Program-made: the position numbers and the translations under genes
Notes under the pieces: generated by a model
Told to the model about the DNA's origin: nothing
What the model saw: the letters and a program-made list of their open reading frames with translations, nothing else
Database searches by the model: none
Shown here: piece after piece, positions 6,045 to 21,800 of the stretch
Layout of the letters: every line of letters starts with the position of its first letter
How positions within the stretch are numbered: the first letter of the stretch is position 1
IMG/VR virus record: IMGVR_UViG_3300032282_001926
Span: 1 to 26,414 of that record
DNA from: a virus
DNA length: 26,414 nt
Reading direction: 5' to 3' (one strand)

Positions 6045-6093
6045 GGCGGGTGGCCGTTGCGTCAACGACGCGCGGTCACCCGCCTCTCTCTTT
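6045..6093 (+). terminator. Rho-independent-type terminator after the capsid gene
   Basis: GGCGGGTGGCCG (6045-6056) pairs with CGGTCACCCGCC (6073-6084) with one mismatch. The inner loop adds GCGTC-AAC-GACGC (6058-6070), giving a long, GC-rich hairpin. It is followed by the pyrimidine tract TCTCTCTTT. The hairpin starts 12 bases after the capsid stop. The U-tract is imperfect, so termination may be partial and allow downstream genes to be read at lower level. Confidence 0.75.
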
Positions 6094-6109
6094 CGCACAC
6101 GGGCCACAC

Positions 6110-6751
6110 ATGGGAGCGGACCTCCTTCTCACCGGGCACAGCGGCGACCAGTTCGCCGCACTCGCCGAGGTCACGTTCCCTCGCCTGCGCAGGTATGCCG
6201 CGCGGCACGGGCTCGACGTCTGGTGCGTGAACCTCGACGGTCCGCGCCCTCCGAGCTGGCAGAAGGTCCTGCATATGATCGAGGCGCTCGACTCGGGCTA
6301 CGAGCGAGTGCTGTGGGTCGATGCCGACGTCGTCGTCGGCGACCTCGAGCGGAACCTCTTCGACGAGCATCGGCCCGACGCCTGGCAAGCGCTGGTCGTC
6401 CACGAGACGAACTGCGGGTCGGTTCCGAACTGCGGCGTCTGGCTCGTCACGCGTTGCATGCGCTCGCACTTGGTCGAGGCATGGGAGCGCGAATACTTCA
6501 CGACGCACCCGTGGTGGGAGCAGGCCGCGATCTTGGAGCTCATGGGCTACCGCGTCACGCAGGACCCGACGGCGCACTTGCACCAGCCGACGGAACTGTT
6601 CGCGCGGACGCAGGTGCTCGGGCCGGAGTGGAATCACCACCCGCACGATAGGAATCAGGTCGCGGAACCGAGGTTCTGGCACGCGACCCAGTACGCAGAC
6701 AGGCTCGCGACCGTCCGAGCGATGGTCGAGCGAGCGGAGGCACGCGAATGA
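6110..6751 (+). CDS. GT-A fold glycosyltransferase
   Basis: This 213-residue protein probably transfers a sugar from a nucleotide-sugar donor in the cytoplasm. RVLWVDADVVV contains the metal-binding DxD motif (D71-A-D73). PNCGVWLVTR (near 106-115), WWEQAA (135-140) and a late FWHAT with H191 are arranged as in small GT-A enzymes of the GT8/GT34 type. I chose ATG 6110 because a GTG at 6050 would place the first 20 codons inside the terminator hairpin. It directly follows the capsid gene and overlaps the next gene by ATGA, so capsid protein is a plausible acceptor, but donor and acceptor cannot be read from sequence. No membrane segment is seen. Confidence 0.8.
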   Translation: MGADLLLTGHSGDQFAALAEVTFPRLRRYAARHGLDVWCVNLDGPRPPSWQKVLHMIEALDSGYERVLWVDADVVVGDLERNLFDEHRPDAWQALVVHETNCGSVPNCGVWLVTRCMRSHLVEAWEREYFTTHPWWEQAAILELMGYRVTQDPTAHLHQPTELFARTQVLGPEWNHHPHDRNQVAEPRFWHATQYADRLATVRAMVERAEARE

Positions 6752-6981
6752 AAGTCCGAATCTTGGAAGACTGCGACACGATCAAGGGCCGCATCGTCGT
6801 CTATGCCGCACCTCGGGTGCTCGACTTCCCGACCGAGGAGGCGTCCCGACTGGTCGCGCTCGGCGTGGCCGAGTACGTCGACGCGCCTGCGGTCGAGGAT
6901 CCCGACAAGCCGGACGAGCGCATGGGTGGGCGCGGCCTGCGTCGGATGACGGCGACGATCAAGTCCTCGATGATCCGGTGA
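6748..6981 (+). CDS. Small phage head-type protein of unknown function
   Basis: This 77-residue protein starts at an ATGA overlap with the preceding glycosyltransferase. The first 45 residues (MKVRILEDCDTIKGRIV, FPTEEASRLVALGVAEYV) look like a small beta-barrel followed by an amphipathic helix, a pattern common in short phage proteins encoded near capsid genes. The rest is charged and ends GLRRMTATIKSSMIR. It lies between two glycosyltransferases, so it could be a head protein or a helper or acceptor for them. No catalytic motif is visible. Confidence 0.7.
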   Translation: MKVRILEDCDTIKGRIVVYAAPRVLDFPTEEASRLVALGVAEYVDAPAVEDPDKPDERMGGRGLRRMTATIKSSMIR

Positions 6982-7973
6982 AACTCCGCTGGGCCTTCAA
7001 CAACTCGATCGTCTCCGGCAACGGCTACGGCTACACGTCGGCGTCGGTCAGGCTGCGTGACGCGGTCGCGCGGCTAGGCGTCGAGATCACGGACGACGCG
7101 GATACGGCGGTCCACTTCTGCCACCCGAACAACTTCTATCCGGTCGAAGGCAAGCGCAACGTCCTGTTCACCATGTACGAGGGCGAGCCGGTGCCGCGCG
7201 AGTTCGAGCGCGCGTTCGCTCTCGCGGACCAGGTGATCGTGCCGTCCCGGTTCTGCGCGAGCCTGTTCGGCCCGGCTCTTCGGAGAGTCGGCAAGCGCGC
7301 GTCGGTCGTGCCGCTCGGCTTCGACCCGGAGCGCTTCCGGTACGAGCCGCGCGACTGGACGCCTGAGTCAGGCAAGCCGTTCGTGTTCCTGCACCTCGGA
7401 GCCGTCAACGGACGCAAGGGCACGGGATCGCTGATCGAAGCGTGGTCGGTCGCATTCCAGTCGACGCCGTGGCTCCATCTGTATCTGAAGCACTCCGTTC
7501 CCGAGGGTGCCGTCTCTCGCTTCGAGCGAGTGCGGAACGTAACGTTCGACACGCGGGCGGTGCCCGATGACGAGCTGCTCGCGATCTACCGGGCCGCGCA
7601 CTGCCTCGTCATGCCGAGCCAGGGCGAGGGCTGGGGACTGCCCATGCTCGAGGCGCAGGCGATCGGCTTGCCGGTCATCACGACCAAGTGGTCGGGCCAG
7701 CTCGACTTCCTCGACGAGTCCTGCGCCTGGTTCGTCCGGCACTCATTCGAGACGGTGATCAACTCCCGGCAGGATCCGTTCCGGGCAGCCGTGGCGGACT
7801 CAGTCGACCTCGCAAGCGTCATGTCCCGAGTCATCGAGCGCTACCCACTGGCGCTCAGGAAGGCCCACAGAGGCGCGATCCGGGCGCAGGCCACCCTGAC
7901 GTGGGCCGACTGCGCTCGGGCCCTCCTGACGGCTCTAGAGCGCGATACGGCGGCCTCTGAGAGGGCGGCATGA
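6978..7973 (+). CDS. GT-B fold glycosyltransferase, GT4-like (copy 1)
   Basis: This 331-residue enzyme probably uses a nucleotide-activated sugar and retains anomeric configuration, as GT4 enzymes do. The C-terminal domain holds GAVNGRKGTG (about 141-150), typical of donor-phosphate binding, and EGWGLPMLE with E217 and E225, the E-X7-E signature. The N-terminal acceptor domain carries AVHFCHPNNFYPVEGKRN and LFTMYE, also present in the second copy at 15,645, so the two are paralogues. I chose GTG 6978, which overlaps the preceding stop as GTGA; the frame is open further upstream but that region encodes another gene. No transmembrane segment is seen. Confidence 0.88.
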   Translation: MKLRWAFNNSIVSGNGYGYTSASVRLRDAVARLGVEITDDADTAVHFCHPNNFYPVEGKRNVLFTMYEGEPVPREFERAFALADQVIVPSRFCASLFGPALRRVGKRASVVPLGFDPERFRYEPRDWTPESGKPFVFLHLGAVNGRKGTGSLIEAWSVAFQSTPWLHLYLKHSVPEGAVSRFERVRNVTFDTRAVPDDELLAIYRAAHCLVMPSQGEGWGLPMLEAQAIGLPVITTKWSGQLDFLDESCAWFVRHSFETVINSRQDPFRAAVADSVDLASVMSRVIERYPLALRKAHRGAIRAQATLTWADCARALLTALERDTAASERAA

Positions 7974-8152
7974 CGGGCCGTCGGAAGCCCGAGCCGATGC
8001 CTCTGTCGCTGCGCGAGACGGTGCTCGCCATGCGGAGGTCGGCCCGGAAGGCGATCGCCGGGCTCGACCTGTCGACCAAGCGGCACCGGGATCGGCGGGA
8101 CCGGCCTCGGTCGGAGTCCCGGCGGCGAGCCGTAGAGGACGAGGAGCCGTAG
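7970..8152 (+). CDS. Small basic protein, unknown function
   Basis: This 60-residue protein starts at an ATGA overlap with the glycosyltransferase, which supports its translation. It is very basic, with clusters such as TKRHRDRRDRPRSESRRR, and probably mostly disordered, so it could bind nucleic acid or an acidic partner. I recognise no family. Such Arg-rich sequence can also be a chance product of GC-rich DNA, so confidence is moderate. Confidence 0.5.
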   Translation: MTGRRKPEPMPLSLRETVLAMRRSARKAIAGLDLSTKRHRDRRDRPRSESRRRAVEDEEP

Positions 8153-8154
8153 CC

Positions 8155-8397
8155 GTGCGCGACACCGAGGACTCGGCCTGCGCGGGCAAGCAGCGGTTCG
8201 ACAGCCGAGGCATGGCCGTCTCGACGCTCGCCAAGATGCACAGCGGGTCGCGCAGTGCGGCTCTCGCGTATCGATGCCGGTGGTGCTCGGGCTATCACCT
8301 GGGCCACGAGCAGTCGGTCGGAGACCGCGGGTCGCGCCGCTGGAAGCGCGGGCAGATCAGGTCAGGTCGCAACAAGCGTCGCATCTCGCTATACTGA
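8155..8397 (+). CDS. Small Cys/His protein, probable zinc binder
   Basis: This 80-residue protein starts at GTG 8155, two bases after the preceding stop. C9, then YRCRWCSGYHLGH with C41, C44, H48 and H51, resembles the short zinc-ribbon-like proteins (CxxK...YxCxxCxxxHxxH) often found in phage genomes. The C-terminal third is basic. The function is unknown; nucleic-acid or protein binding is possible. The last codons overlap the next candidate promoter (TATACT at 8390). Confidence 0.6.
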   Translation: MRDTEDSACAGKQRFDSRGMAVSTLAKMHSGSRSAALAYRCRWCSGYHLGHEQSVGDRGSRRWKRGQIRSGRNKRRISLY

Positions 8398-8421
8398 CGC
8401 TGTCCATCGTCCACGGTCCAC
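8390..8421 (+). promoter_or_regulatory. Candidate promoter with triple GTCCAY repeat
   Basis: TATACT at 8390-8395, a good -10 match, is followed six bases later by GTCCAT (8402-8407), GTCCAC (8409-8414) and GTCCAC (8416-8421), each 7 bases apart. The order matches the element before the tape measure gene (18,846-18,878), where TAGACT is followed seven bases later by three GTCCAC copies. No convincing -35 is seen. This would start transcription of the exported-protein block. Confidence 0.55.
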
Positions 8422-8436
8422 GCGAGCGCGAGACGT

Positions 8437-9057
8437 GTGCCGAATGCATCGCCGTCCGTCGACGGGATCGACCTGCGACGGCCGACTCCAGTCGTCTCCG
8501 GAACTGTCGCATCTGCTGCGACGGTCGGCTCCGTGGACAGCAGGCGCACTGCGCCGACGCTGGCTGGCGGTGCGTCGAGCGTGGCGGCACCTACGGTCGA
8601 CGTTCGCTCGGTACGACTCACGCAGACCGGCCCGAGTTTCGTCGCGCGCCTGGACTTCGTCAGCACGCCTAACCTCGCCGTCTCTGGTGTCCTCGACGTG
8701 ATCGCCGGAGCTACGCAGTTCCCGGTCAGCAGCGGACGCACGCTCTATCTCGGACTGCTCGAGGACGCGTCGATCGCCGAGGTCGAGATTCCGATGCCCG
8801 CGGGTCAGGTGCTCGAGCTCGTCGTCGAGGCCGACTCGGCTCCGGGCACGGGCAAGTCGTTCGCCTACGAGATCATGAAGAACGGAGCGACGTCCGGACT
8901 CGGCGTCAGCACGACGGACTCTGCGACCGGCGGATATGTGACCGGCACGCTGTCATTCTCGCGTCGCGACCGCTTCGCGCTGCGCATCGTCACGAGTGCC
9001 GGTGCGGCGTCGGCGAAGCACAAGTTCTCGCTGCGGTATCTCGTGGCAGGAGGTTGA
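8437..9057 (+). CDS. Beta-rich virion surface-type protein (decoration or fibre)
   Basis: This 206-residue protein has an Ala/Ser/Thr-rich N-terminal third. Residues about 95-206 read as a beta-sandwich: LYLGLLEDASIAEVEIPMPA, a Gly-flanked FAYEIMKNGATSGLGV, then RRDRFALRIVTSAGAASAKH. This FxYxIxKNG...GDRxxLxI pattern is common in C-terminal domains of phage fibre and decoration proteins. It has no signal peptide, unlike the seven genes that follow. I start at GTG 8437, 15 bases after the GTCCAC repeats, without a clear Shine-Dalgarno. Role and location on the virion are inferred. Confidence 0.65.
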   Translation: MPNASPSVDGIDLRRPTPVVSGTVASAATVGSVDSRRTAPTLAGGASSVAAPTVDVRSVRLTQTGPSFVARLDFVSTPNLAVSGVLDVIAGATQFPVSSGRTLYLGLLEDASIAEVEIPMPAGQVLELVVEADSAPGTGKSFAYEIMKNGATSGLGVSTTDSATGGYVTGTLSFSRRDRFALRIVTSAGAASAKHKFSLRYLVAGG

Positions 9058-9061
9058 ACAC

Positions 9062-9190
9062 ATGAGACTCGCCATCCTGATCGCGGCCACGGCCGCACTC
9101 CTGTCCGCCTGCATCGAGCCGAGCCCGACGCCGTGTCCAACGGCTACGCCGGACGGCCGCTACCACGTCATCAAGAGTTCCCAGCAGTAA
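9062..9190 (+). CDS. Tiny predicted lipoprotein (42 residues)
   Basis: ATG 9062 has a perfect AGGAGG at 9048-9053 with an 8-base spacer, the strongest ribosome binding site in the window. The product begins with two basic-side residues, a hydrophobic stretch ending ALLSAC, and lipobox cysteine C17. The mature part is only 26 residues, proline-rich at first (IEPSPTPCPTATP). It would be lipidated and anchored to a membrane. Phage lipoproteins of this size include Rz1-type outer spanins and superinfection-exclusion proteins. No inner spanin is adjacent, so exclusion or a role with the exported fibre block is more likely. Function is unproven. Confidence 0.7.
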   Translation: MRLAILIAATAALLSACIEPSPTPCPTATPDGRYHVIKSSQQ

Positions 9191-9202
9191 CTGCCGGCCA
9201 GG

Positions 9203-9208
9203 GTCCAC
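9203..9208 (+). promoter_or_regulatory. Single GTCCAC element before exported fibre-like gene
   Basis: One GTCCAC lies in the 34-base gap between the lipoprotein stop and ATG 9225. No -10-like sequence is obvious close by. It is recorded because the gap is one of the few not bridged by overlapping genes. Confidence 0.25.
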
Positions 9209-9224
9209 GCTCAGGTCACACACG

Positions 9225-10211
9225 ATGAAGCTCTCACGCACGCTCTGGTCCGCGTTCCTCGGGATCGTCAACGGACTGGTGATCGTCTCTCTCACGGCTC
9301 TGCCCGCGCACGCGATCGACGCGTCCCCTCCGATCACCGGAGAGGACGGCGTGATCGCGTGCCCGACCTGTACGAAGTCCGCGTCGGCCATCTCGCAGTA
9401 CGGCATCCCGTATGGCACCGACGGCACGCAGGCCCTCTCGACGCTGGCCGCGAACTCGACGGCCACGCCGCAGTATCTCAAGTCGGTCAGCTCCGGAGCG
9501 CCGACCTTCGCGCAGGTCGCGATCGGAGACCTCGCGACGTTCTCGTCGTCTGACCTGGCCGGACGCCTGACGGACGAGAGCGGCACGGGTGCGGTCGTGC
9601 TCGGCAGTTCGCCGACCATCACCTCGCCGACGATCTCGACCTCGATCGACCTTCCGGCCGGCGCGGTCAACGCGATGACGGAGATCGACTCGTCGATCAA
9701 GCAATCGTCGACCGGGACGAACAAGGTTGCAACCTTCGAGGGCACGGCGACGGCGGGTCGCTGCGTGCGAGTCAACTCGAACAACAATCTCGAGGTCGCG
9801 ACCGGCGACTGTGCCTCTGGCTCTGGCGTGAACTCTCTGATCGCGCCGAAGAGCCAGACGAAGGTGTCGAACGGCAGCACGACTGTCTACATGGACGCGG
9901 TCGGAGCGGTCGGAACGACGGACGACCTCGGAACGCAGACCGTCGTCCCGGCTGGCACCTGGGGGAACCTGCGCTGCTCGGCATCCTCGAACGGCACAGG
10001 AGCCAGCGTGACGGTCGCGAAGGGCACCTGCGGGTCGGGCCTCTCCACGACCTCGATGCCGACCGTGTCTCTTTCGACTGCGAACGCAGTTACGTCTGAC
10101 ACGTCGACGACGTTCACGACTACGGCAGGCCAGTGCGTGAACTTCCGGATCGCGAAGACCTCGTTTGCGGCGGTCGCGTGGGTGACCTGCGTGCTCGAGC
10201 GCACCGCCTGA
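9225..10211 (+). CDS. Fibre-like protein with a predicted signal peptide
   Basis: This 328-residue protein begins MKLSRTLWSAFLGIVNG and continues to ALPAHA, a good Sec signal peptide with cleavage predicted after residue 30. The mature part reads like a phage tail-fibre or spike segment: KSVSSGAPTFAQVAIGDL near 88, then GTGAVVLGSSPTITSPTIST, a motif common in fibre and virion-associated proteins. The C-terminal half contains Ser/Thr/Val-rich beta strands and six of its cysteines (mature total eight: CPTC, then three C...C pairs), which would suit disulphides in an oxidising compartment. Fibre proteins normally lack signal peptides, so export is odd. I infer a surface-displayed or periplasmic protein. 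Confidence 0.75.
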   Translation: MKLSRTLWSAFLGIVNGLVIVSLTALPAHAIDASPPITGEDGVIACPTCTKSASAISQYGIPYGTDGTQALSTLAANSTATPQYLKSVSSGAPTFAQVAIGDLATFSSSDLAGRLTDESGTGAVVLGSSPTITSPTISTSIDLPAGAVNAMTEIDSSIKQSSTGTNKVATFEGTATAGRCVRVNSNNNLEVATGDCASGSGVNSLIAPKSQTKVSNGSTTVYMDAVGAVGTTDDLGTQTVVPAGTWGNLRCSASSNGTGASVTVAKGTCGSGLSTTSMPTVSLSTANAVTSDTSTTFTTTAGQCVNFRIAKTSFAAVAWVTCVLERTA

Positions 10212-10220
10212 TCTGACGCC

Positions 10221-11147
10221 ATGCGCGACTTCGTCCTGCGAGTGATCCTCATCGTCTTGGCGAGTACGCGCTGCGCTTACTCGTTTGACGGAGGTGGAGG
10301 CTTCAAGGTCGAGGACGGCTTGGTCTCGGGTAAGGCTCAGGTCGACGTGGTCAGTTACAGCGGTAGTTCGTCGACGTATACGACGACTTGGACGAAGCCA
10401 TCCTGGGCGACCATCGTTCATATCTGGTGCGTCGGTGGCGGCGCTGGAGGACAAGGCGGATCAAAAGGAACGTCGTCCCTGACGAATGGTGGCACCGGAG
10501 GAGCATCTGCGTCTCCGCATGAAGGATGGTTCAGGGCATCTGAACTTCCAAGCTCACTGACTGTCGTCGTCGCGAAGGGCGCCACGGGAGGCAACGGAGC
10601 CACGACGAACACTTCCACGGGATCGGTGAGCGGCGCGCGAGCAGATAGTCGCGTGGGCTCCTCCGGCTGCGTTCCAATCGCCTCAAGCAGCGCTCAGACA
10701 GAGTGCCTCGTGTACTCCTACGGATCGAACGCTGCGGCCCTGTACTGGACGGGCAACGCAGGAGGGAACCCGTCAGTCACCATGACCTGCACCGGACTCG
10801 CCTCGTATTCTCCGGGCGGAGGTGCCGGCGGTGGTGGAATCATCACCGGAGTAGCAACGTCTGGATATACGGGCGCGGACGGATGCCAGAGTCCCGGAAG
10901 CGGCGGATCTGGCGCATCGACTCCTGGTGGGAACGGCTCAGCCGGCGCAAGTTACTCGCGCAGGGTCGGCGGAGGCGGAGGTTCTGGTGGAGCATCGATC
11001 ACTTTAGGCACGAACGGAGGGATCGGAGGAGCGGGTGGCACGCCTGGTGGTGGTGGTGGTGGTGGTGGAGCTGGACTGAACGACACGACGAACGGAGGTC
11101 GTGGAGGCGACGGAGGAAACGGCGCATGCGTGTTCGTATCCTTCTGA
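10221..11147 (+). CDS. Exported glycine-rich fibre-type protein 1
   Basis: This 308-residue protein has a hydrophobic N-terminus ending AYS, with probable signal-peptidase cleavage near residue 21. The mature N-terminus contains TWTKPSWATIVHIWCVGGG, the entry motif of the glycine-rich domain found in phage receptor-binding fibres. EGWFRASELPSSLTVVVAKG and long GG-rich loops follow, ending GGDGGNGACVFVSF. The glycine runs probably form polyglycine-II-like or loop-rich structure. It is paralogous to the next two genes. It has no visible tail-attachment domain. Start ATG 10,221 lies nine bases after the preceding stop. It could be an adhesin, decoy or fibre tip. Confidence 0.75.
   Translation: MRDFVLRVILIVLASTRCAYSFDGGGGFKVEDGLVSGKAQVDVVSYSGSSSTYTTTWTKPSWATIVHIWCVGGGAGGQGGSKGTSSLTNGGTGGASASPHEGWFRASELPSSLTVVVAKGATGGNGATTNTSTGSVSGARADSRVGSSGCVPIASSSAQTECLVYSYGSNAAALYWTGNAGGNPSVTMTCTGLASYSPGGGAGGGGIITGVATSGYTGADGCQSPGSGGSGASTPGGNGSAGASYSRRVGGGGGSGGASITLGTNGGIGGAGGTPGGGGGGGGAGLNDTTNGGRGGDGGNGACVFVSF
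11046..11068 (+). repeat. GGT trinucleotide run
   Basis: Seven uninterrupted GGT units at 11,046-11,066 encode glycine within the first glycine-rich gene. Unit gain or loss would change loop length without shifting the frame. Similar but shorter GGN runs occur at the matching positions in the two paralogues and could support recombination between them. Confidence 0.85.
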
Positions 11148-12100
11148 TCTGGCTCATGCTCCCGACTCCAGCGATCGCAATAACTGCGTCCGACACGAGC
11201 GTCGATATGGCCGATGGCGTACTGACGGCAATCGACGTGCGCGTCTACACGTCTGGAACAGCGACATGGCAGAAGCCGTCATATGCCACGCGAGTTCATG
11301 TTTGGTGTGTCGGAGGAGGAGGAGGAGGCGGTTCTGGAGCTCGAAACACGAGCACGTTTTCTGGTGGTGGCGGCGGCGGAGGCTCAGGCGTACTTTCTGA
11401 GGGCTGGTTTCGTGCTTCTGACCTACTAGGCTCGAGCTTGTCGATCGTGATCGGAGCAGGTGGTACAGGAGGATCGTCAGTCTCAAGCGCTGGGAGTTCC
11501 GGGAACAACGGCATCGATGGAGGCCGATCCTACGTCGGAGACTCCGCGTGCATCGCTGCTCCGACTATCTTGACATGCATCGTCTATGCCGACAGCGGTG
11601 CCAAGGGTAACGGTGGAAGCATATCCGGAGCGGCCGCAGGAGGTACCTATCGACCCGGCAGTCCGAACGGCCGTGGCGGTGGCTCTGGATCGCTGGCTGG
11701 CGCTGGTGGCGCAGGCGGCAGTTCGTGCTCTGGTTCGTTCTATGGTCCTGCTGGCGGAGGTGGTGGAAGCGGAGGACATTCGACTACCTCGTTCGTTTCG
11801 TCCACTTCGCAACTAGTCGGCTGCCAGAACGGATTACCCGCGCCTACTGCGACTCCGGCCTCCGGATCGACGGCTCCCTCGGGTGCAAGCGGTACGAACC
11901 TGACGGGCGGCAGGCTGCTCGGTAATGGCGGCATGGGTGGTGGCGGCGGATATGGCGCTACATTCGTCAATGGTGGACCTGGCGGAAACGGCGGTCAGCC
12001 GGGCGGTGGCGGTGGCGGCGGAGGTGGATCAGTTTCTGGAACGTCCGGAGCTGGCGGAAACGGCGGAGACGGAATCTGCTGGATCACGAGTTATCGATGA
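11126..12100 (+). CDS. Exported glycine-rich fibre-type protein 2
   Basis: This 324-residue protein starts at ATG 11,126 with GGAGG at 11,112-11,116, overlapping the end of the preceding gene by 22 bases. The frame is open upstream to about 10,703, but that is an Arg/Trp-rich shadow of the first paralogue. MRVRILLIWLMLPTPAIA is a signal peptide with a classic A-x-A cleavage site after residue 18. The mature part holds DGVLTAIDVRVYTSG, TWQKPSYATRVHVWCVGGGG and EGWFRASDL, and ends GGNGGDGICWITSYR. It aligns by eye with the genes on both sides along its length. Loop lengths and spacer residues differ, as expected for diversified binding loops. Confidence 0.78.
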   Translation: MRVRILLIWLMLPTPAIAITASDTSVDMADGVLTAIDVRVYTSGTATWQKPSYATRVHVWCVGGGGGGGSGARNTSTFSGGGGGGGSGVLSEGWFRASDLLGSSLSIVIGAGGTGGSSVSSAGSSGNNGIDGGRSYVGDSACIAAPTILTCIVYADSGAKGNGGSISGAAAGGTYRPGSPNGRGGGSGSLAGAGGAGGSSCSGSFYGPAGGGGGSGGHSTTSFVSSTSQLVGCQNGLPAPTATPASGSTAPSGASGTNLTGGRLLGNGGMGGGGGYGATFVNGGPGGNGGQPGGGGGGGGGSVSGTSGAGGNGGDGICWITSYR

Positions 12101-13065
12101 GATCGGTCATCCTTGCCCTGCTTATCATCTCCGACGCTCTCGCGATCGAGGAGTTGGGATCGTCGAAGGTCGCAATCGTCGACGGAGCAATCTCGAAGAC
12201 AGCTATCGACGAGAAGGTCTATCTCGCGGGTACGAGCACATGGACTAAGCCAACCTGGGCAAGTGTCGTCTGGGTCTGGTGCGTGGGTGGTGGTGGAGGA
12301 GGAGGCTCCGGTAGGCGCGGAAGCAGCGGCACCAGTGCTGGCGGAGGTGCGGGAGGAGCCGGAGCCATCGCCTCGGGGTGGTTTCTCGCTTCGGAACTCG
12401 ACAGCGAGGAAACCGTGACAGTCGGAACGGGAGGCGACTACGGCGCTGCTCAGACGGGCACCTTAGACGGAAATCCAGGGAGCGCCGGAAACGCCTCGCT
12501 ATTCGGACCGCTCGCTGCATCACGACTTTCCGCTCCAGGCGGCAAGGCCGGCCTCGGAGGCTCAAGCACTCAAGGAGTTCAGGGTAGTGCTACGGCGGGC
12601 AAGCCATTCGGCGGAGTCGCTGGCGGAAACGGCGCTACGGCTGCCGGTGCGTCGTCTACGAACACCTGTCTCTTCAGCGACGCGACGAACCTGTTCGGGC
12701 ATTCTCCAGGCGGTGGTGGTGGTGGAAGCGGCGGAATTACTGGAGACGGTCGTGCTGGTGGGAACGGTTCTGCCGGATGCAACTACGGTGGATCGCGTGG
12801 CGATGGCGGAGCTGCCGTAACGAGTGGAAACGGAAATCCGGGCGGTTCCGGAGGTTCTTTCACCACAGGTAGGAGAGTAGGAGGTGGTGGAGGTGGTGGA
12901 ACCGGAACGCCTGCTGCAAATCGCGTTGCTGGTGATGGCGGATCTGGCGGGACGCCTGGTGGTGGAGGAGGTGGAGGTGGCGGAGGACTCGCGGGCGGCT
13001 CTAGTGGATACAGCGGTAATGGCGGACGTGGCGGAGACGGCATCTGTTATGTCGCGTCGTACTGA
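12097..13065 (+). CDS. Exported glycine-rich fibre-type protein 3
   Basis: This 322-residue protein starts at an ATGA overlap with the preceding paralogue. MRSVILALLIISDALA is a short signal peptide with A-L-A before the cut after residue 16. The mature part has DGAISKTAIDEKVYLAG, TWTKPTWASVVWVWCVGGGG and SGWFLASEL, then glycine-rich loops and the ending GGDGICYVASY. Cysteines number four. Together with the two preceding genes it forms a tandem triplicate whose ends are conserved and whose middle loops vary. The protein lacks enzymatic motifs. Confidence 0.78.
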   Translation: MRSVILALLIISDALAIEELGSSKVAIVDGAISKTAIDEKVYLAGTSTWTKPTWASVVWVWCVGGGGGGGSGRRGSSGTSAGGGAGGAGAIASGWFLASELDSEETVTVGTGGDYGAAQTGTLDGNPGSAGNASLFGPLAASRLSAPGGKAGLGGSSTQGVQGSATAGKPFGGVAGGNGATAAGASSTNTCLFSDATNLFGHSPGGGGGGSGGITGDGRAGGNGSAGCNYGGSRGDGGAAVTSGNGNPGGSGGSFTTGRRVGGGGGGGTGTPAANRVAGDGGSGGTPGGGGGGGGGGLAGGSSGYSGNGGRGGDGICYVASY

Positions 13066-13083
13066 TAGTATTCGGAGCACGAC

Positions 13084-13488
13084 ATGAGGATCGCTCTCAT
13101 ACTCGCTTTGCTGCTGATTGCAGCACCGTCATACGCAGAGCGCTACGCTATCGTGGGCCTCGATGACATCGTCGTTACCGTCATAGAATACGACGGCTAT
13201 CCGACCGATGCCGTTACTCCGTCCGGAGGATACATCGTGCTAGCGCCTCAGGGGTCGGGTGCCGAGTCTGGCGGATCATACAAGAACGGAGTGTTTTCTC
13301 CTAGGCCTAAAGGTCCGCAAGAGATCCTCGTCGAGCGAATGAACGGAGCAATCGATGCGAACCGACTGTTTATTGCCATACTAGCGCCGACTCAGGAGCA
13401 GACGGCAGAACAGGTAAAGCGGCTCACGCAGCAGGTTACCGCGATCCTCCAGTACCAACTTCAGCGCTTTGAGGGAGTCGTCCAGTGA
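13084..13488 (+). CDS. Small exported fibre-associated protein
   Basis: This 134-residue protein begins MRIALILALLLIAAPSYA, an excellent signal peptide with cleavage after residue 18. The mature part has VVTVIEYDGYPTDAV and GGSYKNGVFSPRPKGP, resembling short phage proteins encoded beside tail fibres (the 'wxYdnGxFxxP' type). The C-terminal helix, TAEQVKRLTQQVTAILQYQL, is amphipathic and could oligomerise. In other phages such proteins are cytoplasmic fibre partners; here export is predicted, in line with the genes upstream. It overlaps the next small gene by GTGA. Function is inferred from context only. Confidence 0.7.
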   Translation: MRIALILALLLIAAPSYAERYAIVGLDDIVVTVIEYDGYPTDAVTPSGGYIVLAPQGSGAESGGSYKNGVFSPRPKGPQEILVERMNGAIDANRLFIAILAPTQEQTAEQVKRLTQQVTAILQYQLQRFEGVVQ

Positions 13489-13595
13489 GGCTCGCTGCCG
13501 CAGTAATGCTCTTGGTCGCCTGCACGCGCGGCGACATGTGCTGCTCGTACCTGACCTTGCCGGCGTCTGCGTCGGTTTTGCACGGAGTCGACTGA
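13485..13595 (+). CDS. Tiny predicted lipoprotein (36 residues)
   Basis: A GTG at 13,485 overlaps the previous stop as GTGA. The product starts MRLAAAVMLLVACTRGD, where VMLLVAC is a lipobox with C13 as the predicted lipidated cysteine. Two more cysteines (C19, C20) follow in a mature region of 24 residues. It is too short for most gene finders. Its start resembles that of the lipoprotein at 9062 (both MRLA), so the exported block has a lipoprotein at each end. The gene stops three bases before the adaptor gene. Confidence 0.55.
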   Translation: MRLAAAVMLLVACTRGDMCCSYLTLPASASVLHGVD

Positions 13596-13598
13596 TCG

Positions 13599-14549
13599 AT
13601 GGCAACGACGACTCGAATGGATCCTGGCGTATCCGGTCTGTTCACGGGCACGCTACGCGACGCAGCCGGGACGGTTATCCCGCTCGCGAACATCAACTCG
13701 GCGACCCTCACTCTGCGCGACGGCGCGACGGGCGCGATCGTGAACTCCCGAAATGGGCAGAACGTGCTCAACCTGAACAACGTCACGATCCATGCGACGT
13801 CCGGTGCGATCTCGTGGTCGATCATGCCAGCCGACACGGCCCTCATCGGGACGACCGGCGAGACCGAGGAGCATGTCGCGACGTTCACGATCACGTTCGA
13901 GACGGCGAAGACGCTGATCTTCGAGCATCGGATCGTCTGCCGAGGATATCTGCTGCTCTGCACGGTCGAGGACGTGGCACTGCGCAGGCCTCGAGTGGCG
14001 GACTCCGAGCGGCAGTTCATCGAGTTCCTGATCGACTCCGTGTCGTCTCGGGCCGAGGGCGAGACGACCCGGAAGTTCCGACGCGCGACCCGCACGGAGA
14101 CGTTCTCGATCGACGCATGGCAGCGCCAGGTGCGCGTGAAGGCATTCCCGATCGAGTCCGTGACGTCGATCAAGGAGAGCGTCACCGGGCAGTTCGCGAA
14201 CACGACCGCACTTCAGGCGACCGAGTACGACTGGTCGGTGCTCGGGCACAAGGGCGTGATCGAGCGCCGGAGCGGGAACCGATACGACGGCCTTACAAAC
14301 TTCGGCTTTCTCGAGGGCGTCGGGACCGTGCAGGTGGTCTACGTCGGAGGCTACCGTGACGTCTCTGCCGTGCCGTGGGACCTGCGCGACGCGGTGGCGA
14401 CGCAGGTGGCCTACATGCACCAGCGCAAGGACTCTCTCGGGATCTCCGGAGAGTCGGTCGACGGCAAGTCGATCTCGTATGCGATGGCGATGGACCTCCT
14501 GCCGAGCGTGGCTGCGGTGTTTGCGCAGCACTCTCCGATGCGGCTCTGA
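13599..14549 (+). CDS. Head-tail adaptor with an N-terminal Ig-like domain
   Basis: This 316-residue protein appears to be two domains. Residues 1-115 form a beta-sandwich with TGTLRDAAGTVIPLANINSA, LTLRDGATGAIVNSRNG and GAISWSIMPADTALIG, like small stand-alone phage Ig-like proteins. Residues about 118-316 start LLCTVEDVALRRPRV and include TRTETFSIDAWQRQVRVKAF and DLRDAVATQVAYMHQRKDSL; they match the gp6-like head-tail connector family that docks below the portal. Usual connectors have about 100-200 residues, so the N-terminal domain is extra and may project from the neck. Start ATG 13,599; the stop overlaps the next ATG (TGATG). Confidence 0.75.
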   Translation: MATTTRMDPGVSGLFTGTLRDAAGTVIPLANINSATLTLRDGATGAIVNSRNGQNVLNLNNVTIHATSGAISWSIMPADTALIGTTGETEEHVATFTITFETAKTLIFEHRIVCRGYLLLCTVEDVALRRPRVADSERQFIEFLIDSVSSRAEGETTRKFRRATRTETFSIDAWQRQVRVKAFPIESVTSIKESVTGQFANTTALQATEYDWSVLGHKGVIERRSGNRYDGLTNFGFLEGVGTVQVVYVGGYRDVSAVPWDLRDAVATQVAYMHQRKDSLGISGESVDGKSISYAMAMDLLPSVAAVFAQHSPMRL

Positions 14550-15145: not shown

Positions 15146-15648
15146 CCTCGAACACGATCAGGCAGAAGCTCTTCGAGGCCGTCATCACGCGCCTCCAGCG
15201 GATCACCTACGACAACGGCTTCGACCGGGACATCGGCACGCGAGGCGTGTTCAACGCACGCAAACTGCCGCAGTCGATCCCGACGCCTGCCGTGGTCGTC
15301 ATGCGAGGGATCGAGGAGGTCGACATCACGGCGAACGGCCGGTTCACCTGCACGCTCCCGGTCGTCTGCGACTTCGTGGACGTCTACAACGGCGGCGACC
15401 CGGACGACGAGGCCGACGACTTCCTAGCAGAGGTCGAGGAGGCCGTGATGTCGGACGCGACGACCGGCGTGATCGAGTTCGAGCTGACCGTGCCGAGTCC
15501 GAACGGAGGCACGACGGCGATCATCGCGCGTATCAAGGAGGTCTCGAACGCCGTGAACTTCGGCGACCCGCTCGAGGGCAAGGTCTACGGCCGCTGCGAG
15601 TTCGAGGTGTCCTACGAGCGCAGCATGAAGGACCCGGCCAAGCATTGA
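15142..15648 (+). CDS. Tail terminator (tail completion) protein, probable
   Basis: This 168-residue protein starts at GTG 15,142 (GTGA overlap) between the neck protein and the tail tube genes, where siphoviruses encode the tail terminator. An N-terminal helix (NTIRQKLFEAVITRLQRI), a central beta-sheet (TPAVVVMRGIEEVDI, FTCTLPVVCDFVDVY) and a second helix (EADDFLAEVEEAVMSD) fit the alpha/beta fold of lambda gpU-like terminators. The C-terminal strands read GRCEFEVSYER. Assignment is based mainly on order and predicted fold. Confidence 0.65.
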   Translation: MTSNTIRQKLFEAVITRLQRITYDNGFDRDIGTRGVFNARKLPQSIPTPAVVVMRGIEEVDITANGRFTCTLPVVCDFVDVYNGGDPDDEADDFLAEVEEAVMSDATTGVIEFELTVPSPNGGTTAIIARIKEVSNAVNFGDPLEGKVYGRCEFEVSYERSMKDPAKH

Positions 15649-16766
15649 GCCGGCCGTCGCTGCACTGGGCTATCGAGGCAGACGGCACCGAGCGAGGCAA
15701 CGCGCTCGGGTACGCAACGGCCAACCGCCAGATGAAGGCCGCACTCTCGGAGATCGCCGACCTGACTCCGACCGCGGACGTGGCAGTTCACTTCTGCGTG
15801 CCGTCGCTGTTCCGGCCGATCGAGGGCAAGCGGAACCTGCTCTTCACGATGTACGAGTCCGCGCGCTTGCCGGACGAGTGGCCAGACGGCTTCGCGCGAG
15901 CTGATGCGGTGGTCGTACCGTCGATGTTCTGCCGGGACATCTTCCGGCCGCACACGGACCGGCCGATCTACGTCTGCCCGCTCGGCGTCGACCTCGGGAC
16001 CTACACCTACAAGAAGCGCCATTGGCCGAAGCCTGGCGAGAAGTTCCGCTGGCTCTACGTTGGCGCGCCGAACCAGCGGAAGTGGAGCCTGCTCGAGGAC
16101 CTCTACCGGCACCTGCTGCGCCGGATGGAGCGGACCGAGCTCTACATCAAGACGACCAACGCTCGCCTCCAGTCGATCGATATGCTGTCCAAGAGCGGCA
16201 CGCTCGACTCGTTCGACGGCGAGGTGGTCCGAGGCGACGGAGGCCGGTTCACGGTCGACAACCGCTTCCTCTCGGCCACGGAGATGCGCGACCTCTACTG
16301 GTCGGCGCACGGCTTCATCTTTCCGACTGTCGGCGAGGGCTGGGGACTGACGCCGCTCGAGGCCCAGGCGACCGGGCTGGCTCCGATCGTAACCGGCTAC
16401 TCCGGGCACATGGACTTCTGCACAGTCGAGAACTCGTACCCGATCCACTACCGGCTCGAGGAGCACGTCTGGCGGTCGTCGACCGGAGAGCCGGACCGGC
16501 AGTTCCTCTGGGCCATGCCAGACATCACCGACGCCATGCGAGCCGTGGCGGACGTCGTGATGGACTGGCACCGGGCACAGCAGAAGGGCAAGGCCGCGGC
16601 ACGCAGCGCCATGCGCTTCTCCTGGCCTTCGGCGGCTCGTCGGCTTTTACAGGTCGTTGCCGATTGTGGTAAGACTGAAGTGTCCGAGCGAGTTTCCGTC
16701 AAGGGTGGCGGCTCGCCTGCGCAGGCTACCGGCCACTGTCCATCGTCCACGTCACCGCTGCGATAG
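15645..16766 (+). CDS. GT-B fold glycosyltransferase, GT4-like (copy 2)
   Basis: This 373-residue enzyme is a paralogue of the gene at 6978. Shared features are AVHFCVPSLFRPIEGKRN, LFTMYE and the donor-site signature EGWGLTPLE (E231 and E239, E-X7-E). GAPNQRKW near 140 is the likely phosphate-binding loop. It starts at TTG 15,645 (TTGA overlap with the terminator gene). The last 30 or so residues, from about DCGKTEV onward, are encoded by DNA that also holds the tube gene's candidate promoter and leader, and have no counterpart in copy 1. Its place between connector and tube genes suggests that tail proteins could be acceptors, but this is inference. Confidence 0.85.
   Translation: MSRPSLHWAIEADGTERGNALGYATANRQMKAALSEIADLTPTADVAVHFCVPSLFRPIEGKRNLLFTMYESARLPDEWPDGFARADAVVVPSMFCRDIFRPHTDRPIYVCPLGVDLGTYTYKKRHWPKPGEKFRWLYVGAPNQRKWSLLEDLYRHLLRRMERTELYIKTTNARLQSIDMLSKSGTLDSFDGEVVRGDGGRFTVDNRFLSATEMRDLYWSAHGFIFPTVGEGWGLTPLEAQATGLAPIVTGYSGHMDFCTVENSYPIHYRLEEHVWRSSTGEPDRQFLWAMPDITDAMRAVADVVMDWHRAQQKGKAAARSAMRFSWPSAARRLLQVVADCGKTEVSERVSVKGGGSPAQATGHCPSSTSPLR
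16646..16750 (+). promoter_or_regulatory. Candidate promoter and structured leader with paired GTCCAY (tail tube)
   Basis: TTTACA at 16,646-16,651 and TAAGAC at 16,670-16,675, separated by 18 bases, form the best -35/-10 pair in the window. The leader then contains GCCTGCGCAGGC, a perfect 12-base palindrome at 16,716-16,727, followed by GTCCAT (16,738-16,743) and GTCCAC (16,745-16,750). GAGAGG at 16,774-16,779 is the probable ribosome binding site. The layout parallels the capsid leader. Confidence 0.55.
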
Positions 16767-18346: not shown

Positions 18347-18840
18347 GGCAGTTCGTCCTCGAGACGAGCCGCCCTGGCGCGCCTCGGTCCTGCGCGGAGT
18401 GCAAGGCCGCACAGGCCGGGCGGGACGACCCGGACGAGTGCTGGTACGGCCGGGACTCGTGCCCGTTCGAGGCGTTCGGCCGGGACTCGGAGATGGTCCG
18501 GGTCTACGAGTTCGCCATGCGCTCGGTCGAGACCTGGGAGGCTACGGGTCCCGGCAAGACCAAGCGCACGCAGGCCGGGATCAGTCCCGAGCGATTCGCC
18601 CTGGCGCTCCGGCTCTACCGGGTGCCGGACGTCGAGGGCGAACTGGACCCGCGCGTCCCGTTCCGGGACTCACTCGACGCCTACGAGTGGGTCTCGGTCG
18701 TGACGCGCGCTATCTGTGACGCGCCGAACGAGGTGACGCGGTCCGTGCGCGAGAGGCGCGAGGCCGAGGCTGCGCGCGAGCTCGACGACCTGCGCAAGAT
18801 GATGGCCCAGCACGAGGCGCGTTCCGAAAAGCCCGCGTGA
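17876..18840 (+). CDS. Tail assembly chaperone, -1 frameshifted long form (gpGT-like)
   Basis: A -1 shift on A AAA AAG at 18,331-18,337 joins 154 residues of the short form to 167 residues encoded to the stop at 18,838-18,840, giving 321 residues. The -1 frame is closed by TGA at 18,307-18,309, so it opens just before the slip site. The extension has a Cys cluster, SCAECK then ECWYGRDSC, which could bind zinc. It then has helical sequence ending in a coiled-coil-like RREAEAARELDDLRKMMAQH. An ATG at 18,493 could also start a shorter independent protein, but it has no clear ribosome binding site. The frameshift model matches the G/GT arrangement conserved in siphoviruses. Confidence 0.8.
18315..18367 (+). 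promoter_or_regulatory. Programmed -1 frameshift signal
   Basis: Three parts are visible. AGGAGG (18,315-18,320) is a Shine-Dalgarno-like stimulator 10 bases upstream of the slip site. The slippery heptamer A AAA AAG lies at 18,331-18,337. A small downstream stem, TCGTC with GACGA, lies at 18,353-18,367. The Shine-Dalgarno-like site and heptamer repeat the layout of the E. coli dnaX signal. The stem is short, so the upstream element may matter most. Confidence 0.82.
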
Positions 18841-18845
18841 TCTGG

Positions 18846-18878
18846 TAGACTCGGCAGTGTCCACCGTCCACGGTCCAC
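18846..18878 (+). promoter_or_regulatory. Candidate promoter with triple GTCCAC repeat (tape measure)
   Basis: TAGACT (18,846-18,851) is followed seven bases later by GTCCAC at 18,859-18,864, 18,866-18,871 and 18,873-18,878, an exact 7-base period. TTCCGA at 18,822-18,827 with an 18-base spacer is a poor -35. The start codon follows 15 bases after the last hexamer, with no purine-rich ribosome binding site between them. This is the most regular copy of the element. Confidence 0.55.
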
Positions 18879-18893
18879 CCGGCTTGCGACCTG

Positions 18894-21800
18894 ATGGCTG
18901 AGACGACCTTCACAGTCAAGATCGCAGTCCAGGAGGACGGGTCGATCTCGCTGATCGACCAGGCCGGTGAGAAGATTGCCTCGCTCGGGCAGGCTGCGTC
19001 TGGTGCGAAGGCCGGGCTCTCGACGCTCGAGGCTGGGACGAAGGCCGCTGGATCCGCCGCGCAGGCATCCGGTGGTCAGGTCGGCGAGTTCGGCAACAAG
19101 GCCGGCGAACTAGGGTCGAAGGCGCAGTCTGCGACGGGCGGGCTGTCGTCGATGGCGTCGTCGCTGCTCTCGCTCAACGCGGCCGTTGAACTGTCGAAGA
19201 CGGCTTTCGAGATCGGCAGTCGCGCCGTCGACGCGTTCTTCTCCGGCGTCGACCGCGCCGACAACCTGAACGACCTATCGCAGAAGATCGGCGTCAGCGT
19301 GTCGACGCTGTCAGCCTTCGAGCTTGCGGCGAACACCGCAGGCACGTCGATCGAGGGCGTCGGCAACGGCTTCAAGGTCCTCTCAAAGAACCTGTCCGAG
19401 GCATCTGCCGGGAACACGGCGATGGCCGACTCGTTCAAGCAGGTCCTCGGCGCATCATTCGACGTAAACGAAGGACTCTCCGACACGAACAGCACGATGC
19501 TCGCGCTCGCAGATGCGTTCGCTGGCATGGAAGACGGCGGACGCAAGACAGCGCTGGCGATGGAGGTCCTTGGCAAGTCCGGCGCCGACCTGATCCCGTT
19601 CCTGAATCAGGGCTCGGAAGAGATCACTCGCCTGACGACCCTATCGGAGCGCCTGGGCGCCGTGATCTCCGAGGACACAGCTGCAGCGGCCGATGCCTTC
19701 AACGACAACCTCGCGATCCTCGGGACGGCGGTCACCGGAGTCGGTACGCAGATCGCGGCATCGATGTTGCCTGCGCTGAAGGACCTGACGGACACGATCG
19801 TCGACTTTGTCGCGAACGACTCGACCGTCGCGGCATTCTCCGCAACATTCTCGAGCGCCATGAAGGCCATGTCGGCCGGTGTCCAGAAGATCGCCGACGA
19901 CTTGAAGAACCTCGGCGAGGGCGCGACGCTGAGTCAGCGCCTCGAGGTGATCTTTCGCGACGTGACTCCAACGGTGATCTCCGTCGGAGGACAACTTGCG
20001 AAGGCTCTCTGGAGCGGGTTCGTCTCGGTCGCTGTCTCCATCTGGAACTCGATGGACTGGGTCGACATCATCTCGACCGGGATCTTTATCGCCATAGGAG
20101 GTCCTGCCGGCGGAGCGCTGGCGTTTATCGGTCACGCGATCCTCGAAGGCATCACGGGCGGCGCGGTCGCCAAGGCACCGGAGTCCGCTGCTCAGATCGT
20201 AGACTCGCTTGCGACGGAGTTGAAGGACAACGCGGGCCAGGCCGCTCCGATGATATCGGACGGCGTGTTTGTGGCGATGCTCGGAGGCGGCGCCGCATTG
20301 GCGGCCAACCTGCTCACCGGGCCGATGCAGGCGCTCGGTGCATCGATCGTGGCTTCGCTTGGCGTTGCGATCGGCACTGGCGGCGTTGCAGTTGTTAGTG
20401 CTGCCCTTGCAGCCGTCGTCGTTGGAGGCATCGGCCTCGCCTTCGGCAGTGACGCTCAAGGCGCTTGGAACTCGCAACTGGCGCAGCTGGTCAACTCTGG
20501 CGCGGATACCGTGCGCTCGGAGGTCGAGGCAAAGCGAGACCTGCTCGAAGTAAAGCTCAAGGCGTCGATCGAGTTCGACGCGACCGACATGAGCGGCGAG
20601 ACGGCTCGCCTGAAGCTGGAACTCGACAAGGCGAACGCTGCCCTCGAGAAGACCGCGACGGTCTCTGCCATCGCCGAGGCCAACGGCATCTCCTATGCCG
20701 AGGCCCTGAAGCAGGTGAACTCCGGAACGACGGCAGTATCCGCTGCGGTCGACAAGGAGGCGGAGGCTCTCAAGCGCAAGGAGGAAGCGCAGAAGCAAGC
20801 GCAGGCCGTCATGGACGGCTACGTCTCGAAGCTGAACGAGATCAAGACGGCGACGGAGGCGACGACTTCCTTCTACACGCAACTGAATGCCACTCCGGTG
20901 AACTCGGACCGGTACGTGGCGATCAGCCAAGAGAAGGAGATCTACGACCAGCTCGTGACGACCCTCGGCACGGTCGAGGCGGCGCAGGCATCGATGGCGG
21001 CGCAGGACGCTGCCTATCAGGCAGCGTCAGAGGCGGTCGCGTCGAAGCGCTCGCAGTCAAGCGCTGTCTACGTCAACGACCTCCGGACTCAGGCGCAGGC
21101 AGAGGCAGATCACGTCGCCGCGATGAAGATCGCAGCTGACCAGTACGGAGTCACCGGGCAGACTCAATCTGCTGTTGCGGCGATCATCGAGGAGTCGAGC
21201 CTCCGCATTCTAGGAGCTACCGAGCAGGAGGCTGCGGCTATCCGGACGGCAGCCGAAGGTAAGATTCAGGCAGTCATCTCCGGTCAGACCTACGCCGACC
21301 AACTCACGCAACAGACCGAGGCCGAAAAGGCCCAGATGGACGCTGTCAACAAGAACAGCGAGGCCATCACGGCGCACGCCACGGCGATCCAGGGACTCTC
21401 GACTGTCGGACAGATCTGGCAGTACGCCGCCGACGGAGCGATCAGTTACGGCGACGCGGAGCGTGCGGCCACGGCTGCGGCTAGCGCGTCGACGGACGTA
21501 TTCGACCAAGCGGCGGCGGTGCGCATGCGACTGGTCGAGGTGACGGTCCAGCAGACGAACGAGAACCTGAAGGCTGCAGCCGCATCGCAACAGAACCAAG
21601 TCAACCTTCAGGCCGAGATCGCAGCGATCGATGCCGCCGAATCGTCTGGCGTTAGTTATGCGAACTCGACTCTGGAGATCGAGAGGGCGAAGATCCTCGC
21701 CGCCGCTGCCACCCAGAAAGCAGCCGACTCGACCATCGCAGAGACTGCTGCGCTGAACGAGTCGATCGACAAACTCGCGCAGAGCAAGATCAACGAGCTC

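Follow-up and report, generated by a model that had tools for sequence, protein, structure and literature searches.

Seven consecutive genes of the virus record IMGVR_UViG_3300032282_001926, at positions 9062–13595, carry N-terminal export signals, and at least four of them encode fibre-like proteins. From these sequences we strongly infer that the products of this cassette are exported to the cell envelope. The DNA analysed, hereafter the window, is the complete 26.4 kb record (26,414 nucleotides), and all of its genes lie on the + strand. They run from a portal with a Mu-F domain through a protease-like protein, the major capsid protein and glycosyltransferases to the cassette, and continue with a head-tail adaptor, a neck protein, a tail terminator, a further glycosyltransferase, a tail-tube-like protein and a tape measure of more than 2,500 residues that extends past the window end. 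Within the cassette, the seven open reading frames (ORFs) are separated by gaps of 34, 9 and 18 bases or overlap by 22, 4 and 4. To our knowledge, known tailed phages produce and assemble their fibres within the cytoplasm, and a literature search returned neither an exported fibre set in tailed phages nor a description of such a cassette.

Export signals and fibre-like proteins of the cassette

Signals were scored with a home-made, approximate rule that asks for a positive n-region, an h-region of at least 8 residues with a mean Kyte-Doolittle value of at least 1.8, and either an AxA-type cut or a lipobox; the same rule detects 14 of 14 known E. coli signals. All seven cassette genes pass, compared with none of the 17 other window genes (Fisher p = 2.9e-6), although the gene at 12097 does so only if Asp is permitted just before the cut (otherwise six of seven, p = 5e-5). 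A sequence-only reading had proposed exactly this run of two lipoprotein signals and five Sec signal peptides, the latter cut after AHA, AYS, AIA, ALA and SYA, and our analysis bears it out. The best N-terminal 8-residue hydrophobicity values form disjoint ranges, 2.66–3.86 in the cassette and at most 1.78 in the other window genes. Given background rates of 0/17 in those genes, 6/183 among off-frame ORFs and 2/154 among structural-region coding sequences of seven cultured phages, where neither passing gene is a fibre, we rejected a chance origin of the signals. From the short signals and lipoboxes we assume a diderm host.

Two small lipoproteins frame the set. Lipoprotein A (9062–9190; 42 residues) has AGGAGG upstream, a lipobox LSA↓C (MRLAILIAATAALLSA↓C) and a proline-rich mature part, and lipoprotein B (13485–13595; 36 residues, GTG start) has the lipobox LVA↓C (MRLAAAVMLLVA↓CTRGDMCC). 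Neither has Asp at position +2, which predicts an outer-membrane-type signal for both. Between them, the product of 9225–10211 follows a 30-residue Sec signal (ALPAHA↓IDAS) and joins a variable middle to a conserved C-terminus, modelled as a low-confidence beta sandwich with equally low-confidence fold matches to virion cement, spike and TNF-like tips. Three glycine-rich adhesin-like proteins come next, encoded at 10221–11147 (signal STRCAYS↓FDGG), 11126–12100 (LPTPAIA↓ITAS) and 12097–13065 (SDALA↓IEEL). The small protein of 13084–13488 (APSYA↓ERYA) has a beta N-terminus and a helical C-terminus in a low-confidence model and one weak PHROG match (phrog_4123, E 2e-4); it is possibly a fibre accessory or assembly-like protein. 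The AlphaFold models were built on two-sequence alignments and reach a mean predicted local distance difference test score of 42–43, so their fold matches are leads only.

The glycine-rich proteins match tail families of Pfam (PF21722, Gly_rich_2) and PHROGs (863, 356, 416 and 754). Two exceed the curated whole-protein Gly_rich_2 cut-off of 24.3 bits, namely 11126 (45.7 bits; phrog_863 E 1e-15) and 12097 (37.7 bits; phrog_863 E 9e-10), while 10221 falls below it (20.0 bits, E 7e-4) and also matches PHROG tail families. Together with the low-confidence model of 9225, these matches uphold the earlier count of at least four fibre-type products. We take the glycine-run tip domains with variable loops to resemble the polyglycine tail-fibre-tip adhesins of T-even gp38 type, and we know of no Sec signal in gp38. 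A PDB sequence search gave no gp38 match; its sole match was the phage tail wing brush protein gp33 (9d93, E 2e-4).

Cysteines are enriched in the cassette, at 30 in 1,494 residues (2.0%) versus 41 in 4,571 (0.9%) for the other genes, a comparison that leaves out the cysteine-free tape measure (0 in 2,506 residues). Every fibre-like protein that has four or more cysteines in its mature part, seven in all, has an even number of them: 8, 6, 6 and 4 in the window, for 9225, 10221, 11126 and 12097, and 8, 4 and 14 in G001, a related phage contig described below. The paired cysteines previously noted in the 9225 product are among these. The glycine-rich cassette proteins further share WCVGGG near the start, GC[QN] inside and G-[IA]-C at the end. 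Such patterns suit an oxidising compartment.

Shortly after the cut, at mature positions 11–13, six proteins each carry once a motif that we call the DG box, DG[AVLI][IVL][SATG] (DG-hydrophobic-hydrophobic-small). The carriers are 9225 and 10221 (both at mature position 11), 11126 (12), 12097 (13), the G001 homologue of 9225 and a G001 fibre module (module 1), the G001 region being 39442–42236 on the minus strand; the box is absent from 13084 and from the G001 LamG-like protein. It was spotted by inspecting the sequences, so its low background rate (7 in 74,429 residues) is not a formal p-value. Because the box crosses three families without other evident similarity, it probably serves for docking or forms part of a stalk, and it also supports the predicted cut sites.

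The cassette is bordered on the right by the head-tail adaptor (13599–14549; phrog_442, E 4e-20) and on the left by a tip-like protein (8437–9057) that fails the signal rule. The sequence-only reading had begun its region at this left-hand gene, which now falls outside the exported set. Its G001 counterpart (42273–42842) matches it in position, is similar in length, also lacks a signal and has a weak PHROG tail-fibre match (E 0.07); the 8437 product is probably a cytoplasmic virion protein. G+C content drops to 60–63% at window positions 10001–14000, across the cassette, from about 66–69% before, as expected for an exchanged module.

Three glycosyltransferase-like genes also lie within the virion operon (6050–6751, 6981–7973 and 15645–16766). 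Two are of phrog_2170/GT4 type, and 6050–6751 matches no family but contains a sugar-transferase-like DADVVVG motif. Their products could glycosylate the virion or the exported proteins.

The cassette in related phages

Comparison across phages rests on three cassettes, one of them partial: those of the window, L007 and G001. The closest relatives by capsid protein (93–100% identity; L002–L005) are short contigs that end before the cassette. In L007, whose adaptor is 88% identical to the window's, a 13084 homologue and lipoprotein B are present along with the last part of a glycine-rich gene; this preserved end, GGSGICYVATF, is also the C-terminal signature of 12097 at the matching position. 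G001, a 66.7 kb contig retrieved with the pattern VACTRGDMCC, is more distant, with a capsid protein about 30% identical to that of the window. In both relatives the cassette sits between capsid and head-tail-connector genes. Further CTRGDMC matches in L015 and L016 lay in interrupted frames and were dismissed as chance.

The G001 locus comprises the signal-less 8437-like gene, the 9225 homologue with its signal, a different fibre-like protein with a signal, a LamG-like protein with 14 cysteines (PHROG match to a virion structural protein, E 3e-7), a small protein with a signal, and lipoprotein B; no counterpart of lipoprotein A was found in this cassette. The signal rule is passed by two of two genes in L007 and four of five in G001, where the LamG-like gene fails because its hydrophobic N-terminus lacks n-region charge. 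The fibre modules of G001 thus differ from those of the window, with one LamG-like and no glycine-rich protein, and nearly all carry signals. Since modules are swapped while signals are kept, export appears to be a property of the locus rather than of a single protein family.

The signals themselves survive sequence change. Between 13084 and its L007 homologue (42% identical), 5 of 20 signal residues are identical compared with 51 of 116 in the mature part; the signal has been rewritten, yet its charge, hydrophobic core and cut site are retained. The G001 counterpart of 13084 has position and signal in common with it more than sequence. Lipoprotein B is 36 residues long in all three phages, and while its hydrophobic core varies, the lipobox and the mature start CTRGDMCC[SA]Y[WL][ST]LP are strongly conserved through synonymous changes. 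The 9225 product is 62% identical to its G001 homologue, and among its C-terminal codons 73 are the same, 44 differ synonymously and 15 non-synonymously. Signals that outlast sequence change, their recurrence in two further phages and the cysteine patterns strengthen the earlier proposal that fibre-like proteins are exported, which remains a prediction from sequence.

Cultured phages hold related fibres without signals. The best cultured match to the glycine-rich proteins is the C-terminus of gp6 from the Rhodobacter phage RcSimone-Hastad, which shares the same domain; the window proteins are 40–43% identical to each other and to this region in a MAFFT alignment, although the BLAST match is weak (E 6). 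In gp6, however, the domain is C-terminal in a protein of 753 residues that lacks a signal and whose gene follows those of the tail tape measure and hub, and none of the cysteine positions WCVGGG, GC[QN] and G-[IA]-C is present. In the window, by contrast, the domain stands about 25–35 residues after a Sec signal and has these added cysteine positions. An ordinary cytoplasmic tail fibre has no Sec signal and has an N-terminal virion-docking region, whereas here signals occur throughout and only those 25–35 residues separate signal from tip in the glycine-rich proteins.

The locus has cultured counterparts as well. Judged by the tail-tube-like protein, the nearest cultured phages include the cyanophages S-CBS1, S-LBS1 and S-CBS3 (25–30% identity), Synechococcus siphophages with the same gene order, in which fibre genes lie between major capsid and connector genes. 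The products there are small proteins together with either Mtd or a tail fibre; none has a signal, and there are no lipoproteins. The locus is therefore a fibre locus, and export looks derived in the group formed by the window, L007 and G001, the probable direction of change being from signal-less to exported. Another cultured phage with a related tail-tube protein, Alteromonas phage P24 (L028), encodes a predicted lipoprotein (11454–11822) among its head-tail connector genes.

Other searches returned no relatives. Tblastn against cultured phages with 13084, 12097, 9225 and the G001 LamG-like protein gave no matches, scans of genome contigs for related prophages found none, and a scan of viral contigs with 12097 gave no confirmed relative, low-complexity filtering probably masking glycine-rich matches. 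Elsewhere in G001, a radical SAM/SPASM protein (51502–52611, minus strand) has glycosyltransferase-like genes as neighbours and lies upstream of the portal gene, and a small signal-peptide protein (18798–19148, minus strand; MARRLVAAVLLVMLVAGSRAQA) adjoins an SLT transglycosylase after the tail genes and is probably lysis-related.

Candidate roles for a putatively exported fibre set

We tentatively favour a role at the host surface and regard it as possible rather than assured: an adhesin set at the infected cell's envelope, partly linked to outer-membrane lipoproteins, that occupies surface receptors. Here the fibre locus of related siphophages would have been redirected through the Sec pathway, as suggested by the signals, the locus and its signal-less relatives. 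The exported proteins would fold with disulfide bonds in the envelope, consistent with their even, position-conserved cysteines, and the mature tips would probably be docked by their DG box to one shared partner, for which outer-membrane lipoprotein B is a candidate. The receptors or glycans used by the phage may then be occupied by these adhesin tips, both late in infection and in the lysate, which would limit superinfection and keep new virions from sticking to debris. The earlier suggestion that the proteins mimic the fibre target finds no support, as they resemble adhesins and not receptors.

This role is favoured on two grounds: export of envelope proteins to this end is known from phages, the receptor-blocking T5 Llp (PMC9586334) and Rtp45 (PMC12685063) being examples, and the cassette is framed by two predicted outer-membrane lipoproteins. 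Lipoprotein B is conserved across phages whose capsid proteins are about 30% identical, and we also count in support that the tail hub of G001 is a separate protein, signal-less and with collar-like repeats (read by eye, no family match). Like T5 Llp, Cor and Rtp45, the window's lipoproteins are small phage lipoproteins predicted to be sent to the outer membrane (PMC9586334, PMC12685063); unlike them, they belong to the virion operon and occur together with fibre-like proteins that have export signals of their own. The proposed purpose equals that of Llp and Rtp45, but would be achieved by adhesins rather than by one small lipoprotein. Outside the signal, their sequences match none of these lipoproteins: the best PHROG match to Cor is that of lipoprotein A (phrog_1119, E 0.28), with none for B, and homology to Llp or Cor is not indicated.

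Several points weigh against a surface role. Export is a prediction from sequence, and before lysis, tips in a diderm periplasm could not reach outer loops. The exclusion lipoproteins known so far are not adhesins and work from the periplasmic side. In many phages, exclusion proteins are produced early (PMC9586334), whereas the cassette sits among virion genes. The exported tips of G001 are not copies of its virion hub domains, and modular tip swapping with a shared docking box also fits true virion fibres.

The last point leads to the main rival, a somewhat unlikely but serious one, in which fibres are exported to the periplasm for disulfide formation and trimerisation and attach through the DG box to virions once lysis mixes periplasm and capsids. 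It draws on the syntenic fibre locus of cultured relatives, glycine-rich domains and putative tip folds of the kind seen in virions, module swapping that resembles receptor-binding fibres, the DG box common to mature N-termini and the co-export of a small accessory-like protein. It leaves the two lipoproteins without an obvious part, and G001 already has its signal-less tail hub. Fibre assembly after lysis is not known to us from any tailed phage, and our literature search found no case. The full form of this proposal, receptor-binding fibres that are Sec-exported, oxidised in the periplasm and mounted at lysis to complete a tailed virion extracytoplasmically, appears doubtful. Module 1 of G001 reads by eye as a typical fibre, with no family match.

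A temperate phage might instead display the adhesins on its lysogens, altering attachment, aggregation or biofilm. G001 does carry a tyrosine integrase, and the products are adhesin-like, apparently cysteine-bonded and lipoprotein-associated; but the cassette is embedded among virion genes of the same orientation, with overlaps of 4–22 bases or short gaps, and a search limited to sigma-70-like promoters found none at 7900–13700 (0.8 expected), giving no sign of separate lysogen expression. We consider such lysogenic conversion improbable. It is very improbable that the hydrophobic N-termini merely anchor ordinary cytoplasmic fibres in the membrane or the virion: the 9225 signal segment keeps its sequence from phage to phage, as an anchor would, but in 13084 and lipoprotein B the signal has changed in sequence with charge, hydrophobic core and cut or lipobox retained, the cysteines are even in number, two genes have lipoboxes, and related fibres at the same locus lack such N-termini. 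We give hardly any credence to a lysis-related envelope module in which lipoprotein A is an Rz1-like outer-membrane spanin and the other products weaken the envelope. Lipoprotein A is indeed small and proline-rich with a lipobox and a weak Rz-like PHROG match (E 0.19), but its neighbours are 8437 and 9225, no adjacent inner-membrane spanin, holin or endolysin was recognised, it was not found in the G001 cassette, and the set has putative fibre-tip folds.

A conserved, modular locus that equips a whole set of fibre tips with export signals would mean either that phages use adhesins as tools in the envelope of the host or that, for some tailed virions, completion takes place outside the cytoplasm. 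The post-signal DG box and the CTRGDMCC lipoprotein offer specific handles for finding more examples, and the cassette suggests that phage fibres are used in the bacterial envelope in a way not described before.

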